Virus record (IMG/VR): IMGVR_UViG_3300027797_001262
Coordinates: 1 to 28,240 of that record
DNA length: 28,240 nucleotides
Direction: 5' to 3' (one strand)
From: a virus
Shown: positions 2,066 to 26,043 of the stretch, in pieces
Numbering within the stretch: the stretch's first letter is position 1
How the letters are laid out: each line of letters opens with the position of its first letter
Translations under genes and position numbers: made by a program
Notes under the pieces: generated by a model
What the model was told of the DNA's origin: nothing
The model's database searches: none
The model's input: the letters and a program-made list of their open reading frames with translations, nothing else

Positions 2066-2114
2066 AATATGTCCTAATAACAATGATCAAAGCCATCATG
2101 TTTTGTACTAACCT

Positions 2115-2120
2115 TATTTA
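2115..2120 (-). promoter_or_regulatory. Late-promoter box TAAATA for the virion operon
   Basis: TAAATA reads on the minus strand 49 nt before the ATG at 2065, leaving room for a leader with the AGGA ribosome binding site. It lies back to back with the plus-strand box at 2126. It matches the core of the T4 late promoter TATAAATA. Confidence 0.55.
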
Positions 2121-2125
2121 TCGGT

Positions 2126-2131
2126 TAAATA
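2126..2131 (+). promoter_or_regulatory. Late-promoter box TAAATA before hemA
   Basis: TTAAATA lies 8 nt before the ATG at 2140. With the T4 late-promoter geometry, transcription would begin at or next to the start codon. Together with the box at 2115-2120 it forms a divergent late promoter pair. Confidence 0.55.
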
Positions 2132-2139
2132 ACATTACG

Positions 2140-3342
2140 ATGATAAACAAAGAACCCTTCAACTCCTTGCTTAAAGACATGAAAACCACGGGCAAATACC
2201 GTGTGTTCAACGACATTATACGTGAAGCAGGCAAGTTTCCTGCTGCCATGTGGTACGGACCTTACAATATCAAAAACATTGTGAACTGGTGTTCCAATGA
2301 CTATCTGGGCATGGGACAGCACAAAGTGGTTCTAGATGCCATGCACACTGCCTTGGATCACACGGGATCAGGTAGTGGAGGCACTCGCAACATAGGCGGT
2401 ACCAGTCACTATCACGTGGCTCTGGAGCATGAATTGGCCACTCTGCACAACAAGGCCAAGGCTCTGCTGTTCTCATCAGCCTATGTGGCCAACGAATGGA
2501 CCTTGATTGCTCTGGCCAAGATCATACCCAACATACACTTTGTGTCGGACAGTGAAAATCACAACAGTCTTGTTATTGGTATGCGCCATAGTCGTGCAGC
2601 AAAAAGCATTTTCAAACACAATGATCTCAAAGATCTAGAAGACAAATTATCCAGTATACAACTCACGGGCAATGTGCCCTGTGTGGTGTTTGAATCCGTC
2701 TACTCAATGGATGGCGATGTGGGGCATATCCGGGAGATCTGTGACCTAGCTGATCGCTATGGTGCCATCACATATATCGATGAAGTACATGCGGTAGGAC
2801 TCTATGGTCCCCACGGTGGTGGGAAAGTTGAAGAGCTTGGGCTACAATCCCGTATTGACATAGTCAATGGTACATTGGGGAAAGCCTATGGAGTCCAAGG
2901 TGGCTATATTGCTGCCGATGTTGAGATCATCGATGCCATCCGTTCAGTAGCTGCGGGTTTTATTTTTACCACATCAATGAGCCCTGTTTCATGTGCCGGT
3001 GCTCTAGCTGCTGTCAAGTATCTCAAAGATCATAACGAACTACGTGATCTGCATCAAGAACGTGCTCGTAAACTAAAGCATAGATTGATCAAAGCGGGTA
3101 TACCTGTGATGGAATGTTCAACCACGCACATAGTACCGGTGTTGGTAGGTGAAGCCAAGAAGTGCAAGGCCATGAGCGATGCGCTATTAAATGATCACAA
3201 CATCTATGTACAGCCAATCAATCATCCCACAGTTGCAGTAGGTACAGAGCGTTTAAGATTTGCTCCAACACCCTTTCACGATGATGGCATGATTGAAGAT
3301 CTAGTCATGTCTCTCAAAGACGTTTTTAATAGAACTTACTAG
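2140..3342 (+). CDS. hemA: 5-Aminolevulinate synthase (ALAS, Shemin pathway)
   Basis: This PLP enzyme of the alpha-oxoamine synthase family condenses glycine with succinyl-CoA to 5-aminolevulinate, the first step of heme and tetrapyrrole synthesis. At 400 aa it has full family length. ALAS-type motifs appear in order: CSNDYLGM (51-58), [17 protein letters not shown] (76-92), SDSENHNS (136-143), [15 protein letters not shown] (214-228; Asp214 and His217 contact PLP) and [12 protein letters not shown] with the Schiff-base Lys248. The 'GTRNIxGTSHYH' and '[11 protein letters not shown]' forms point to ALAS rather than BioF or Kbl. The start at 2140 aligns with known ALAS N-termini; an in-frame ATG at 2083 would add 19 unrelated residues. 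All catalytic landmarks are present, so it is probably active. A late box sits 8 nt upstream. It is a host-derived auxiliary metabolic gene. Confidence 0.93.
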
Positions 3343-4201
3343 TCTTTAGATACTGGCAGTATTCTTTAATGCCCTGCCAGGGTTCATAGAATAAATCAAC
3401 GTTGACTCCCGCAAGCTCTAGTTTGCCAGTATCAGCTTTGGTATCCAATTGATATTGTGCTTTGAGATCTTCGGGCATGGGGATAGAGCATTTGACACCT
3501 GTACCACATTCATTGATCACAATGTTGGCGATGCTGTCAAAGTCCACACTGGCTCCTGTGCCTAGATCATATATCCCGGGTGTGTAGTTTTTCACAAAGT
3601 GATAGATGGTACTGGCCACATCCTCTACCCAGACAAAGTCTCTACGATAGTTCTTGCTGTTTTCAAAGATGTTGATCTTGCTGTCTGTTTGTATTTGATT
3701 GTACCAATGCAGTATGGTACTGGCCATACGACCCTTGTGATACTCGTTGGGTCCGTAGACGTTGAACAGCCTCAACACTACACCTGTAATCTCTTGTTCG
3801 CTGACCTGTTTGCTGAATGCATATTGATTGAGTGGGCCTGCACCATTGCCGTAGACTGCGGCTGAACTGGTAAAGATAAAAGGGATGGCATGTTCAAGAC
3901 AGAAAGCATTCCACATGCGAGTTGACAGCACATTGCTTTTATAGATAGATGGCCAGCTGCGTTCCAGTGTGCTAGAGTTAGCACCAATGTGGACGACTGC
4001 GTCAATGTCTTTGGGATTGAACGTGGTCTTTTCAAATGCGGAGTGCGGGTGCATACTCTTGAACTGCTTGCCCACAAGGTTGCGATATTGTGTTTCGTTT
4101 GACAGATCATCAAATAACACAACATCAGTGATGCCTTTCTTGTTTAGATAGCCCAACATCACGCTGCCGATGAAACCGCCTGCCCCTGTTAATACAATCA
4201 T
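3326..4201 (-). CDS. hldD: ADP-L-glycero-D-manno-heptose 6-epimerase
   Basis: This 291-aa extended short-chain dehydrogenase is expected to convert ADP-D-glycero- to ADP-L-glycero-D-manno-heptose using NADP(+). It has the Rossmann motif TGAGGFIG (5-12), SSAAVYG, the catalytic Tyr and Lys in [20 protein letters not shown] (the HldD-type 'YGPxExHKGxMAS' signature), [10 protein letters not shown] and GIYDLGTG. Spacing and motifs follow E. coli HldD closely. The ATG at 4201 overlaps the stop of hldA as ATGA, so the two are translationally coupled; a longer frame to 4231 has no support. It is the last gene of the clpP-heptose cluster and converges on hemA with a 17-nt overlap. The product is the activated heptose used in LPS inner core. 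Confidence 0.9.
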
Positions 4202-4959
4202 AGTATTTCTTCCATCGTAGGAGCATAACATCCAACATGCTGAACTGTGATAGCGGCAGCTTGGTTGGCAAAGTCCATGGCTCTTTTTATATCTTTGGTA
4301 TGTAGGTAGTTGTAGACAAGTGCGGCAAGAAAGGTATCTCCTGCGCCTGTAACATCTACAACTTCTACTCTTGGTGCTTTAGAACTATACTCGTGATGGA
4401 CAGCATCCGCACCTTTGGCACCACGTGTAACAATCAATCCACTGCATTCGCTTTTGATCTTGGTGTACTCTAGCTCGTTGATCTTTACCCATGCACCTTG
4501 CATACGTTCTAGATCTGTTTTCTTAGTATCGATAAAGATAGGAATACTTAGTGCTATCAGATCTTCTATAAGTTCGTAGCTAACTGTTCCTTTATTATAA
4601 TCACTGACTACAACAGCATCATACACATCGGGAATATCTGTTTCGAATGTCAACGGATCAGATACGATGTCATTGTCAATACGCACAATCTGTTGTTTGC
4701 TGCGAGCATCAATAAGTCTAGTCTTGGTGCTGGTCTCGCCAAATAGATAATTTACTTCACAGCCCAATGCCTCTAGATTGTTAAACACATTACCTGCCAT
4801 ACCATCGCTTTCTTCTGCATACGTAGGCACAAATACAGGTACAGGTGCTTCTGGGCTTAGCCTATCAATAGTCCCGTACTGGTAAATGTCTTTACAGTTA
4901 TCACCTATTAGCAATATCTTGTATTTTGTTTGTGGTTGAGTAGTTTTTGAATCTGTCAT
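4198..4959 (-). CDS. hldA: D-glycero-beta-D-manno-heptose-7-phosphate kinase (HldE domain I type)
   Basis: This 253-aa PfkB-family sugar kinase matches the kinase half of HldE. It has LLIGDNCKDIYQYG near the N-terminus, RLSPEAPVPVF (the heptose-kinase signature), a Gly-rich GMAGNVFNNLEALG segment, and the catalytic DVTGAGDTF near the C-terminus. It is shorter than a typical HldE kinase domain (about 315 aa), mainly in the central lid region. It would phosphorylate heptose-7-phosphate at C1. Its first 20 codons overlap the end of hldC by 59 nt in another frame. Its stop overlaps hldD as ATGA. In E. coli this domain is fused to the nucleotidyltransferase; here the two are separate and in reversed gene order. 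Confidence 0.87.
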   Translation of the reverse strand: MTDSKTTQPQTKYKILLIGDNCKDIYQYGTIDRLSPEAPVPVFVPTYAEESDGMAGNVFNNLEALGCEVNYLFGETSTKTRLIDARSKQQIVRIDNDIVSDPLTFETDIPDVYDAVVVSDYNKGTVSYELIEDLIALSIPIFIDTKKTDLERMQGAWVKINELEYTKIKSECSGLIVTRGAKGADAVHHEYSSKAPRVEVVDVTGAGDTFLAALVYNYLHTKDIKRAMDFANQAAAITVQHVGCYAPTMEEIL

Positions 4960-5302
4960 AAAATTTTATCTCTTTGCAGTATTCTGCACCTATAATGGGC
5001 TTGTCTCGATAGTCACTGCCCTTGACCATGACCTCAGGTTCAAAGCCTTTGATCAAATCTACAAGTTCCTGATCAGTGTCAAATGTTTCCACACGATCCA
5101 CACACTTCAAGGCAAACAACATACTGCATCGTTCATATTCCGTGTTAACAGGACGATTCAAACCTTTTAGTTCTCGCACTCTGCGATCACTGTCAGTTAA
5201 CACCAACACATAGCTGTTGGGAAAACTTCTTGCATATTGCAGTAATCTCAAATGCCCTAAATGTATGATGTCAAATGTTCCGTTGACAACAACCCGTGTC
5301 AT
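4901..5302 (-). CDS. hldC: D-beta-D-heptose 1-phosphate adenylyltransferase (HldE domain II type)
   Basis: This 133-aa cytidylyltransferase-fold enzyme is expected to join heptose-1-phosphate to AMP from ATP, giving ADP-heptose. It has NGTFDIIHLGHLRLL with the nucleotide-binding HxGH (His-Leu-Gly-His), VLTDSDRRVRELKG, EVMVKGSDY and the C-terminal YSTTNKI. All are in the order found in HldE domain II and stand-alone HldC. Length fits the single domain. The start ATG overlaps the gmhB stop as ATGA. The last 59 nt overlap hldA in another frame, which is long for this genome. Other glycerol-phosphate-type cytidylyltransferases share the fold, but the neighbours make heptose the best substrate. 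Confidence 0.87.
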   Translation of the reverse strand: MTRVVVNGTFDIIHLGHLRLLQYARSFPNSYVLVLTDSDRRVRELKGLNRPVNTEYERCSMLFALKCVDRVETFDTDQELVDLIKGFEPEVMVKGSDYRDKPIIGAEYCKEIKFYDRFKNYSTTNKIQDIANR

Positions 5303-5916
5303 GCAAGCGACTCCACAAACTGAGCTAGGTTGTCAAATATGACAGTGCGCTGTTTGATTTTTCTATAGGTAAACTTTTGCAGTTCTTTTTCAGTTTCTGA
5401 ACCATAGCCAGTTCGAACCAGCACAGGCCTAGCACCAATGTTCATGGCTGCTTTGAGATCTTTCATTTTGTCGCCTACGTAGAAGCCACCCTTGAATTTG
5501 ATATCTTTAATGTCGGCTTCACACTTTTTAAACATGCCCACGTTGGGCTTGGCAAATGGATCTTCCTTTCGACTACTGGCGCTGTAGTAGATGCCGTCAA
5601 TACTAAAGCAGCCTGCTTCGCCCAGCAGTTTCAGCATGTGCTCATGCACAGTGTCCACATCTTGTTGTGTGTAAAGACCTTTTTCGATGCCACCTTGATC
5701 GGTGATCACTGTGATCTTATAGCCTTTACGCCTTAGTTCAGCTATGGCATCAATGCTGCCTGGGATGGGGTCAAAGTCCTCTACCTTGTGGCAGTAGGTG
5801 CCTAGGTCTCTATTGATTACTCCATCTCTATCAAGTCCTACTACACATTTTGTGCGGAACTCTCCGCCTATCCAAGATATCTTAGGTTGGTTGTTCTGTG
5901 GCTGGTTTGGCTGCAA
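5299..5916 (-). CDS. gmhB: D-glycero-D-manno-heptose 1,7-bisphosphate phosphatase
   Basis: This HAD-superfamily phosphatase is expected to remove the C7 phosphate between the kinase and adenylyltransferase steps. Motif I is GLDRDGVIN with nucleophile Asp29 and Asp31, motif II is VITDQGGI, and motif IV is YVGDKMKDLKAA. The Cys/His zinc loop of most GmhB proteins is absent: the equivalent segment (YYSASSRKEDPFAKPNVGM) has no Cys. The start is TTG at 5916, supported by AGGAG 9 nt upstream; this makes a 205-aa protein that overlaps the cupin gene by 35 nt. The first 15 residues are Gln/Asn/Pro-rich. A histidinol-phosphatase-like HAD is the alternative family reading, but the operon favours GmhB. 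Confidence 0.85.
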   Translation of the reverse strand: MQPNQPQNNQPKISWIGGEFRTKCVVGLDRDGVINRDLGTYCHKVEDFDPIPGSIDAIAELRRKGYKITVITDQGGIEKGLYTQQDVDTVHEHMLKLLGEAGCFSIDGIYYSASSRKEDPFAKPNVGMFKKCEADIKDIKFKGGFYVGDKMKDLKAAMNIGARPVLVRTGYGSETEKELQKFTYRKIKQRTVIFDNLAQFVESLA

Positions 5917-7740: not shown

Positions 7741-7769
7741 TTGACTTGTTGTGGTTTTGACTGTATACT
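7741..7769 (+). promoter_or_regulatory. Sigma70-like promoter before the HNH gene
   Basis: TTGACT, 17 bp, then TATACT, with the -10 box 28 nt before the ATG at 7798. A late box follows at 7784, so the HNH gene may be read both early and late. Confidence 0.7.
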
Positions 7770-7783
7770 GATTGTTCTTGGAT

Positions 7784-7789
7784 TAAATA
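7784..7789 (+). promoter_or_regulatory. Late-promoter box TAAATA before the HNH gene
   Basis: ATTAAATA ends 8 nt before the ATG at 7798, the same spacing as at hemA. Confidence 0.5.
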
Positions 7790-7797
7790 CACGTATT

Positions 7798-8313
7798 ATG
7801 ACTACCCTAGTACTTAACGCAGACATGCAGCCATTGAGCCTATTACCCCTCAGTACCATAGACTGGCAAGAAGCCATTCGTTACATGGTTCTGGACAAGG
7901 TCAAGGTCTTGGAATGGCATGAAGATTGGATCGTGCGATCTGCACGTTGGGAAACTCGTGTGCCTGCTGTGATCATGCTGAACTCCTATCAAAAACCCAA
8001 ACACACCATGAGATTGAGCAAACGCAATATATTTCTGCGTGATGCCTATAGTTGCCAATACTGTGGAGTAGAAATGGCAGAAGCGTTGGCCACTTTGGAT
8101 CATGTGCTGCCTGTGAGCAAGGGTGGCAAGACCACTTGGGAAAACTCAACCACTGCCTGCAAGAGCTGCAACTACAAGAAGGCAGCACATGTGGGCAAGA
8201 TGAAACCAAAAGTCACGCCCTACAAGCCCACATTTTGGGACCTTGTGGCCAAGCGTAGGGTAAGGGGATATCATCTACAACATCCTAGTTGGGCTGACTA
8301 TTTGGGCATTTGA
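7798..8313 (+). CDS. HNH endonuclease
   Basis: This is a 171-aa protein. Residues 86-89 (CQYC) and 121-124 (CKSC) form a Cys4 zinc site around the nuclease core TLDHVLPVSKGG (Asp101-His102), then WEN and the closing NYKK. This is the classic HNH arrangement of bacterial and phage nucleases (CxxC ... DHxxPxSxGG ... N ... CxxCN). The N-terminal 75 residues (MTTLVLNADMQPLSLLPL) match the leader common to stand-alone HNH proteins. It may be a free-standing homing-type nuclease or a host-DNA-degrading or packaging-associated enzyme. It has both sigma70-like and late-type promoter elements upstream. Confidence 0.88.
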   Translation: MTTLVLNADMQPLSLLPLSTIDWQEAIRYMVLDKVKVLEWHEDWIVRSARWETRVPAVIMLNSYQKPKHTMRLSKRNIFLRDAYSCQYCGVEMAEALATLDHVLPVSKGGKTTWENSTTACKSCNYKKAAHVGKMKPKVTPYKPTFWDLVAKRRVRGYHLQHPSWADYLGI

Positions 8314-22378: not shown

Positions 22379-22456
<78 letters not shown>

Positions 22457-22479
22457 TATTATATACAGCAGCAACACCA

Positions 22480-22556
22480 CACGCCTTAGCTCAGTTGGAT
22501 AGAGCAACAGCCTTCTAAGCTGTGGGCCACTGGTTCGAATCCAGTAGGCGTGGCCA
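22480..22556 (+). tRNA. tRNA-Arg (UCU)
   Basis: The anticodon loop is CTTCTAA (UCU, reads AGA/AGG). The D arm is GCTCAGTTGGATAGAGC, the T arm has GGTTCGAATCC, discriminator G, CCA encoded. The body is very like bacterial Arg-UCU, but the first pair is C1-G72 instead of the usual G1-C72. It would relieve rare AGA codons in the host. Confidence 0.94.
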
Positions 22557-22609
22557 TAATAACGTTGCAGCATGTTGAGAAGCAGCAGTTGAGCGCAGCG
22601 TACGAGAGA

Positions 22610-22696
22610 GCCCGGATGGTGAAATAGGTAGACACAAGAGACTTAAAATCTCTCGCTCGAAAGGGCATGCCGGTTCGATTCCGGCTCCGGGCACCA
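22610..22696 (+). tRNA. tRNA-Leu (UAA)
   Basis: This 87-nt class II tRNA has acceptor GCCCGGA/TCCGGGC, anticodon loop CTTAAAA (UAA), a long variable arm (CGCTCGAAAGGGCATG region), T loop TTCGATT, discriminator A, and encoded CCA. It reads UUA/UUG. Confidence 0.94.
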
Positions 22697-22799
22697 AGAA
22701 CAGCAGCAACTTGAAAGACCTGCGCAGCGCACAGCAGCAGCCTGCAGCTAATGAGAGTGCCGCGGGCTAGCCCAAAGTGTGGCAGTTTGGCTACAGTTT

Positions 22800-22837
22800 G
22801 GTTATCCACAAGCACTGTGTATAACCTGTGGATAACC
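22800..22837. promoter_or_regulatory. Cluster of three DnaA-box matches (candidate origin element)
   Basis: TTATCCACA at 22802-22810 (plus) and the same consensus on the minus strand at 22827-22835 lie within an 11-bp perfect inverted repeat (GGTTATCCACA / TGTGGATAACC). A third match, TTATACACA, is on the minus strand at 22816-22824 in the loop. All fit TTATNCACA. A directly repeated CAGTTTGG (22783, 22794) precedes and a T-rich stretch (22884-22894) follows. Host DnaA binding is therefore likely; origin function is inference. Confidence 0.7.
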
Positions 22838-22895
22838 TTAACCACCAACATCTAGAACAAGAAACCCTAGTGTGTCATGGGTCTTTTTATTTTGG

Positions 22896-22924
22896 TTGAC
22901 GGCATCACCAAAATGCAGTATAAT
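22896..22924 (+). promoter_or_regulatory. Sigma70 promoter with near-leaderless start
   Basis: TTGACG, 17 bp, TATAAT. The ATG at 22931 begins 7 nt after the -10 box, at the expected transcription start. Confidence 0.8.
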
Positions 22925-22930
22925 AGACAC

Positions 22931-23269
22931 ATGACACAGACAAACACCATTCGTAAAAAGCGCACAGATCGCAATCATATCATATATGAGTTGCGTGTTG
23001 CTGGGGGCAACTACATAGGAGTCACTGCCAAAACAGAGACTACTATTAATAAGTCAGTTCTTGCTCGTGCCGCTAAACACTTCTATCGTGCCAAGAAAGA
23101 AGCTAAGGATTGGGCCTTGTGTCATGCCCTGCGCACTCTCAGCGACAAGAGCGAGATAGAAGTATACGTGCATGAAGTGGTTCGTGGCAAGGCTCAAGCC
23201 CACAAGCGTGAGGTAGAGCTACGTCGTGCCATTAACCCTACACTGAATACGGATGTTCGTGGGGACTGA
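22931..23269 (+). CDS. GIY-YIG nuclease-like protein
   Basis: This is a 112-aa protein from ATG 22931. IIYELRVAGGNYIGVTA fits the GIY-YIG core (here xIY...YIG), a conserved Arg-x3-His lies in LARAAKHFYRA, and REVELRRAINPTLNT provides the Glu and Asn at the end of the fold. KKRTDRNH at the N-terminus and EVVRGKAQAHKREVEL are features seen in homologous T4-like phage proteins. It probably cuts DNA. The longer frame from 22877 starts upstream of the promoter and is unlikely to be translated, so this mRNA may be leaderless. Confidence 0.78.
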   Translation: MTQTNTIRKKRTDRNHIIYELRVAGGNYIGVTAKTETTINKSVLARAAKHFYRAKKEAKDWALCHALRTLSDKSEIEVYVHEVVRGKAQAHKREVELRRAINPTLNTDVRGD

Positions 23270-23778: not shown

Positions 23779-24156
23779 ATGAGACACTACGACGAATTGG
23801 CTGTATACGAGCGCAACGGCTTTGATATTATTGTGGATAAATCATATGAAGACCTGGACCCCAAAGACTGCTTCGACGACACCCAGTTCGACATTGCAGA
23901 GATCAACCACAACATCGAACACGGGAATCTTGACTGGTTCATGCTGCGTGTCCGAGTTATGGTTGAGAACATCGAACTCAGTTCACAGTTCTTGGGCGGA
24001 TGCTTATATGAAGACGCCCGCGAAGTCCTTACTGACGGGACTGCCGAAGACCTCATTGCTGAAGCGTTGGTAGAGGCCAAACGGGATGTCTACCGCTTAT
24101 ACAAGAAGTTCCAGGACATCAGCTGGGAACTTGATGCAGAAGGAGTTGCAGCATGA
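23779..24156 (+). CDS. Acidic early protein (125 aa), function unknown
   Basis: This is a 125-aa, strongly acidic protein (YEDLDPKDCFDDTQFDIAEI near residue 25; TDGTAEDLIAEALVEAKRDV near 87), mostly helical. The charge could suit a DNA mimic or an inhibitor of a host DNA-binding protein, but there is no specific motif. It has ATGA overlap with the next gene. Confidence 0.75.
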   Translation: MRHYDELAVYERNGFDIIVDKSYEDLDPKDCFDDTQFDIAEINHNIEHGNLDWFMLRVRVMVENIELSSQFLGGCLYEDAREVLTDGTAEDLIAEALVEAKRDVYRLYKKFQDISWELDAEGVAA

Positions 24157-24990: not shown

Positions 24991-26043
24991 ATGGCTACAT
25001 TAGTTGAGATTGTTGAGGGTTCGTATGGTGCTCGCAAGAACATGATCTATCCCGGCATTCGGTTGCAAATGGTCAAGGACTTTGACGGTGAGGCTATTAC
25101 TTGCCTTGCTGGCGAAGAGATTGAAAACGGACGCAATCCCTACAAGAAGATCCGCGTCAAGGTCTCTGGCATTAATGCATACCGCGTGGTTGCGCATATT
25201 GACGAGGCTCCTGTAGGAGAGAACAGTTTGGTACAACTTAAGGTGGCTGATAGTGCTGTAGCACACATTACGGACGAAGAGCTCATCGAGAAGACTCGTG
25301 CTCGCTTCCAAGTACTTACAGACATGACTAAGGCTGTTAAGGCTGGTGATGTACGTGCTATGATTGTCACAGGTCCCCCAGGCGTAGGCAAATCGTTTGG
25401 TGTTGAAGAAGTGCTCACTAAGGACGACTTGTTCAATACCTTAGGCGAGCGCAAGCCACGCTACGAGATTGTGAAAGGTGCTATGAGTGCCATTGGCTTG
25501 TACAGCAAGCTCTACGAGTTCTCAAGCGAGAAGAATGTTATTGTGTTCGATGACTGCGACTCAGTGTTGCTGGACGACTTGAGCTTGAACATCTTGAAGG
25601 CGGCTTTGGACAGTTCCAAGAAGCGTACTATCAGCTGGAACACTGACAGCCGTATCCTACGAAGCGAAGGCATCCCAGATCGCTTCGAGTTCAAGGCTGG
25701 TGCTATCTTTATTACCAACATCAAGTTTGAGAACGTGCGCTCTAAGAAGCTACAGGATCACCTTGCCGCTCTTGAGAGCCGTTGCCACTACATTGATCTG
25801 CAGATGGACACAGACCGTGAGAAGGTGTTGCGTATCAAGCAGATCGTTGCAGACGGCATGCTTGACGAGTACGAGCTGAGCGATGTGGCCAAGATTGATG
25901 TTGTGGACTTTGTGTCTAACAACCGTGCTAAACTACGCGAGCTGAGCCTGCGTACGGTGTTGAAGGTTGCACAATTGCGCAAGGCATTTGCCAGCAACTG
26001 GGAAGCAATGGCAGAGGTCACTGTTATGAAGCGAGGTGCATGA
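24991..26043 (+). CDS. AAA+ ATPase
   Basis: This is a 350-aa protein. An N-terminal beta-rich domain (1-90) precedes a single AAA+ module: Walker A GPPGVGKS (about 127-134), Walker B VIVFDDCD, sensor 1 region AIFITN, and a following Arg-rich segment. The C-terminal helices (VDFVSNNRAKLRELSLRTVL) fit the AAA+ lid. It is typical of phage ATPases of unknown partner. Its early promoter carries a palindromic operator. It may work with the second ATPase at 27675 or remodel host complexes. Confidence 0.88.
   Translation: MATLVEIVEGSYGARKNMIYPGIRLQMVKDFDGEAITCLAGEEIENGRNPYKKIRVKVSGINAYRVVAHIDEAPVGENSLVQLKVADSAVAHITDEELIEKTRARFQVLTDMTKAVKAGDVRAMIVTGPPGVGKSFGVEEVLTKDDLFNTLGERKPRYEIVKGAMSAIGLYSKLYEFSSEKNVIVFDDCDSVLLDDLSLNILKAALDSSKKRTISWNTDSRILRSEGIPDRFEFKAGAIFITNIKFENVRSKKLQDHLAALESRCHYIDLQMDTDREKVLRIKQIVADGMLDEYELSDVAKIDVVDFVSNNRAKLRELSLRTVLKVAQLRKAFASNWEAMAEVTVMKRGA

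Follow-up and report, generated by a model that had tools for sequence, protein, structure and literature searches.

A cluster of three DnaA boxes at 22802-22835 of a 28,240-base virus record (the whole stretch that was analysed, hereafter the window) is read here, tentatively, as an optional docking site for host DnaA that would modulate the first early promoter of the phage, and not as a replication origin. In the proposed mechanism, host DnaA would dock at a tandem double box (22816-22835) and an opposed third box (22802-22810), which lie about 95-130 bp before the point where the first early transcript is predicted to start. As a cooperatively bound dimer or trimer, DnaA would modulate the early promoter, by which the phage could sense or exploit the replication state of its host. 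We infer the binding of DnaA, its effect on the promoter and the sign of that effect. Large T4-like lytic phages are usually thought to be independent of the host initiator. If the site is real, a double box near the first early promoter that is gained and lost among relatives with its geometry kept would mean that some large phages couple takeover to the host replication state.

All three boxes are exact matches. Box 1 (TTATCCACA, 22802-22810, plus strand) and box 2 (TTATACACA, 22816-22824, minus strand, matching TTATNCACA) stand head to head across a 5-bp gap. Box 3 (TTATCCACA, 22827-22835, minus strand) follows in the same orientation as box 2 after a 2-bp spacer, and these two form the double box that recurs in relatives. 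A perfect 11-bp inverted repeat (22800-22837), with the arms GGTTATCCACA at 22800-22810 and TGTGGATAACC at 22827-22837, encloses the cluster. The window contains four strict boxes, compared to a mean of 1.7 in shuffled sequences, and 8.6% of the shuffles reach four, whereas the triple within 34 bp was seen in 0 of 1,500 dinucleotide shuffles and has a Poisson expectation of about 3e-6 per window. The unusual feature is thus the clustering and not the box count; the proposal of the initial annotation, that three boxes within 34 bp in a perfect palindrome are very unlikely by chance, therefore holds. The fourth strict box (23832-23840, minus strand) lies inside a coding sequence and is explicable by coding constraint, because this 125-aa reading frame is 100% identical in the related genome G001.

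In vivo, E. coli DnaA preferentially binds tandem pairs of boxes spaced 2-3 bp apart (PMC11317965), and DnaA binding is therefore the natural inference for boxes 2 and 3, which with their same orientation and 2-bp spacer fall within the double-box type of the E. coli regulon; the geometry is compared here with the preference of E. coli DnaA, and the DnaA of the phage host may differ in specificity.

As initially annotated, the cluster lies downstream of tRNA genes, where the early region begins. It is preceded by three tRNA genes (Met, Arg, and Leu; 22379-22696, plus strand), and a strong sigma-70-like early promoter (TTGACG-17-TATAAT, 11 of 12 matches; 22896-22924, plus strand) follows it. 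The repeated CAGTTTGG and the T-rich stretch, which had been described as flanking the boxes, both exist but belong to separate elements. The CAGTTTGG copies at 22783 and 22794 are parts of a hairpin (CCAAAGTGTGGC-AGTTTG-GCTACAGTTTGG; 22772-22801, plus strand), which is separate from the boxes and conserved independently of them, in relatives with and without boxes and in either orientation. The T-rich stretch (22884-22893) comes after a short ACCC/GGGT stem and resembles a terminator tail. This terminator-like stem with its T tail (22864-22893, plus strand), which ends the tRNA region, was read from the sequence and was not listed by the terminator scan; an equivalent stem (AACCCT..AGGGT) is present in relatives. 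After the tRNAs, the hairpin CCAAANTGTGGC-loop-GCYACANTTTGG has the orientation of the window in 24 dereplicated relatives and an inverted core (TGTAGCCAAAATGCCACA or similar) in 6. In addition, the palindrome TGTTCGCGAACA recurs upstream in relatives (e.g., L129-L133), between the tRNAs and the hairpin or before the terminator.

The first early gene (22931-23269, plus strand; 112 aa) is GIY-YIG-like by eye and has its ATG on the predicted transcription start; it gave no family match, and a protein search among named phages was empty. Exactly 6 nt separate the end of the -10 box TATAAT from this ATG (22919-22931), so the first early mRNA should be leaderless, and the same 6-nt distance is seen in most relatives. 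The distance from the promoter -35 to the ATG is also the same in relatives. A TTTTGG and CCAAAA dyad around the -35 (22892-22915), common to many relatives, is a possible operator.

Relatives were gathered via the first early gene and their upstream regions were dereplicated, which gave 69 regions carrying the promoter. Pairs were scored as two same-strand TTRTNCACA boxes with a spacer of 2 or 3 bp. With A or G at position 3 admitted after inspection of the relatives, which share ancestry and are not independent samples, a perfect double box was found in 10 of the 69, always with a 2-bp spacer and on the minus strand. A double box with up to two mismatches was found in 17 of the 69, nearly all in one register. 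No perfect pair occurred in 1,765 200-nt windows of G001 or in 1,380 shuffles. The box variants across relatives (TTATCCACA, TTGTCCACA, TTATACACA, TTGTACACA, and TTGTTCACA) vary at the third and fifth positions of the box, and the substitutions are largely confined to positions that the DnaA consensus tolerates. Measured from the ATG, the member of the pair nearer the promoter is at -101 to -106 in almost all relatives, including L170 and L178 (-102 and -101, respectively), in which the intervening sequence is different. The exception is L165, in which this box is at -84, displaced by two helical turns (about 21-22 bp).

Conversely, the double box is absent from about three quarters of the relatives that share this promoter, and in the closest relative (L124/G001) one disallowed point change in each of the three boxes has abolished them all. 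The window has an intact opposed box 1, as do L145-L152 with a different spacing, and the position of box 1 reads ATATCCACA in the near relatives L124 and L171. Because most relatives lack the double box and the boxes of L124/G001 are broken, any benefit of the site would be conditional or optional.

The related genome (G001/L125; 353,123 bases) aligns collinearly with most of the window (78-91% DNA identity), and the stretch with the DnaA-box site is 88.6% identical between the two. The match runs on across the ends of the record, as if the genome were circularly permuted. Genes for a family-B DNA polymerase (PolB) and a DnaB-like helicase are present in G001; no DnaA C-terminal (DNA-binding) domain was found there. 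Among named phages, a search with the neighbourhood at the DNA level gave tRNA matches only, and the nearest named relatives of the AAA+ gene at 24991-26043 are the PA5oct-group Pseudomonas jumbo phages and T4-like phages.

The window also carries a 5-aminolevulinate synthase gene (2083-3342; TIGR01821, 573 bits versus a cut-off of 339); copies on MAG and genome contigs from mixed taxa share 64-69% identity with it. A gene run at 3326-5916 resembles ADP-heptose synthesis, with an epimerase and a heptose-7-phosphate kinase-like gene as well as nucleotidyltransferase-like and phosphatase-like ORFs, the latter two judged by eye. An HNH protein (7741-8313) shows weak similarity to IscB and lies near a divergent gene boundary that is a local GC-skew minimum.

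A host DnaA site on the phage is predicted from the sequence, with support from the chance statistics, the double-box geometry, the recurrence at one position in relatives, and the mostly tolerated substitutions. Control of the next promoter (22896), one of the roles put forward in the initial annotation, is favoured because the distance between the boxes and the early promoter is near-constant. DnaA is a known activator and repressor of bacterial promoters and also acts in transcription at ori-lambda (PMC8203912). Counting against promoter control, the terminator-like stem lies between the boxes and the promoter in most relatives, and 95-130 bp is a long distance for RNA polymerase to be contacted directly.

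Viral contigs were surveyed for a plus-strand box followed after 2-20 bp by a minus-strand box and after a further 2-6 bp by another minus-strand box, with the box read backwards as the control. The pattern occurred in at least 120 stretches, compared to 1 for the reversed control, which suggests that DnaA-box clusters are widespread in phages. Among the matches listed, 54 of 60 dereplicated three-box loci were intergenic, and the second gap was 2 bp in 68 and 3 bp in 52 of 133, although 2-6 bp were allowed. The genes flanking the clusters in these matches were mixed (SSB, terminase, HNH, and helicase/primase), with no consistent replication initiator beside them. Because terminases, SSB, and helicase/primase genes flank them, many of the cluster contigs are true phages.

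Among named phages, the 21-base double box TGTGTATAACCTGTGGATAAC is common to Pseudomonas phage DL64 and Photobacterium phage TEMp-D1, with no annotated gene there, and a one-base variant of it lies in DNA without an annotated gene in Pseudomonas phage LIT1 and its relatives. A long non-coding stretch of Streptomyces phage Annadreamy also contains a double box. In Litunavirus (N4-like) genomes, the non-coding DNA that follows ORF90, close to the right end of the genome, holds a double or near-double box (L298 1501-1521, LIT1). No reports of DnaA boxes in jumbo or N4-like phages were found in the part of the literature that was covered. It is at present improbable that many unrelated lytic phages generally use intergenic double or triple boxes to read or manipulate the host DnaA cycle, the cases with a DARS layout recharging ADP-DnaA to ATP-DnaA during takeover; the layouts that match DARS make a specific and cheap biochemical test possible.

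An alternative, which we consider unlikely, is that the boxes serve as a sink or decoy: they would bind host DnaA, lower free DnaA and restrain initiation on the host chromosome, the more strongly as the phage genomes multiply. The double box is strong, additional copies of datA reduce initiation in E. coli (PMC5742627), the chromosome of that bacterium titrates DnaA (PMC12371093), and the mostly intergenic location of the box clusters in many unrelated phages, among the matches listed, is consistent with such a role. However, three clustered boxes, set against the hundreds of motifs that the E. coli chromosome carries (PMC12371093), would have little early effect, and the remainder of the 353-kb relative is not box-rich (15 matches versus 8 for the control). 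Moreover, a sink does not need a fixed distance to the promoter.

Also rather unlikely is that the cluster is not a DnaA site, in which case the boxes would either form the arms of a hairpin in RNA or DNA or have arisen as a side effect of an 11-bp tandem duplication (TTTGGATAACC to TGTGGATAACC) where the hairpin meets the terminator. The arms do pair as a stem in the predicted RNA, L124 retains a near-palindrome despite its broken boxes, and L136-like relatives read TTTGGATAACCTGTGGATAAC, which resembles a duplication. On the other hand, the overall fold is ordinary (z -1.66), L145 keeps the boxes though pairing is weakened, the boxes of L170 and L178 sit in different surrounding sequence, and the diversity is concentrated at positions that DnaA tolerates.

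A DnaA-dependent replication origin, as suggested in the initial annotation, is disfavoured and unlikely. The cluster does lie in non-coding DNA where the early region starts, and Ori-Finder reads such clusters as predicted origins in other phages (PMC11512268). However, the boxes are degraded in the 353-kb relative in spite of its identity over the site, and that relative has a polymerase and a DnaB-like helicase of its own. An AT-rich unwinding element is also missing, as AT content over 50 bp peaks at 68%, within the promoter, a level equalled by 8% of all 50-bp stretches of the window. GC skew, a check proposed at the outset, was rejected as support for an origin, as the 353-kb relative has no turn at the site; its extremes, where skew may follow gene direction, are at about 165, 310, and 341 kb, at least 14 kb from the site at 327 kb.

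Least probable, and in our judgement very unlikely, is a DARS-like element, in which the three boxes would stimulate the release of ADP by DnaA and increase the level of ATP-DnaA, which might keep host dNTP and replication genes active. The core of E. coli DARS1 is TTATCCACT-5-TGTGGATAA-3-TGTGTATTA, and DARS2 has the same spacing: in both sequences, box I (+) is followed after 5 bp by box II (-) and after 3 bp by box III (-), in agreement with the published description, in which head-to-head boxes I and II are the hallmark (PMC5742627). The window reads TTATCCACA-5-TGTGTATAA-2-TGTGGATAA, and thus resembles DARS1 and DARS2 in having three boxes with the first opposed (+,-,-), a 5-bp gap between I and II, and II and III in tandem. 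It differs from them in the second gap (2 bp and not 3 bp), in that related phages do not keep the layout (the gap is 6 bp with a broken box I in L171 and about 28 bp in L145-L152, and others have no box I), and in that no regulatory IHF/Fis region and no exact IHF site were found nearby. Among the matches listed in the viral survey, the loci L066, L073, L080, and L113 have exactly 5 and 3 bp, whereas 5-bp gaps are not favoured overall.

Other known systems resemble the site in part. Like E. coli datA, it is a cluster of DnaA boxes in non-coding DNA; the essential boxes of datA, however, all have one orientation and a required IHF site accompanies them, whereas one of the three phage boxes is opposed and no exact IHF consensus was found in the window, where one of 57 one-mismatch matches is at the site. 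The site is thus outside the datA type. Pseudomonas phage PseuGes_254 also has DnaA boxes on its genome, in an origin predicted by Ori-Finder (PMC11512268), whereas the site in the window has no origin features. The DnaA sites of phage lambda, at which ori-lambda is transcriptionally activated (PMC8203912), set a precedent for the use of host DnaA for transcription by a phage, as is proposed here; in contrast to lambda, this is a jumbo phage whose 353-kb relative has replication proteins of its own, and the sequence and position of the site are unrelated. Finally, the double boxes of the E. coli DnaA regulon (PMC11317965) share with the phage site a promoter-region location and two boxes on one strand with 2 bp between them, whereas the phage pair is predicted and is separated from the downstream start by about 95-115 bp and, in most relatives, also by a terminator-like stem.
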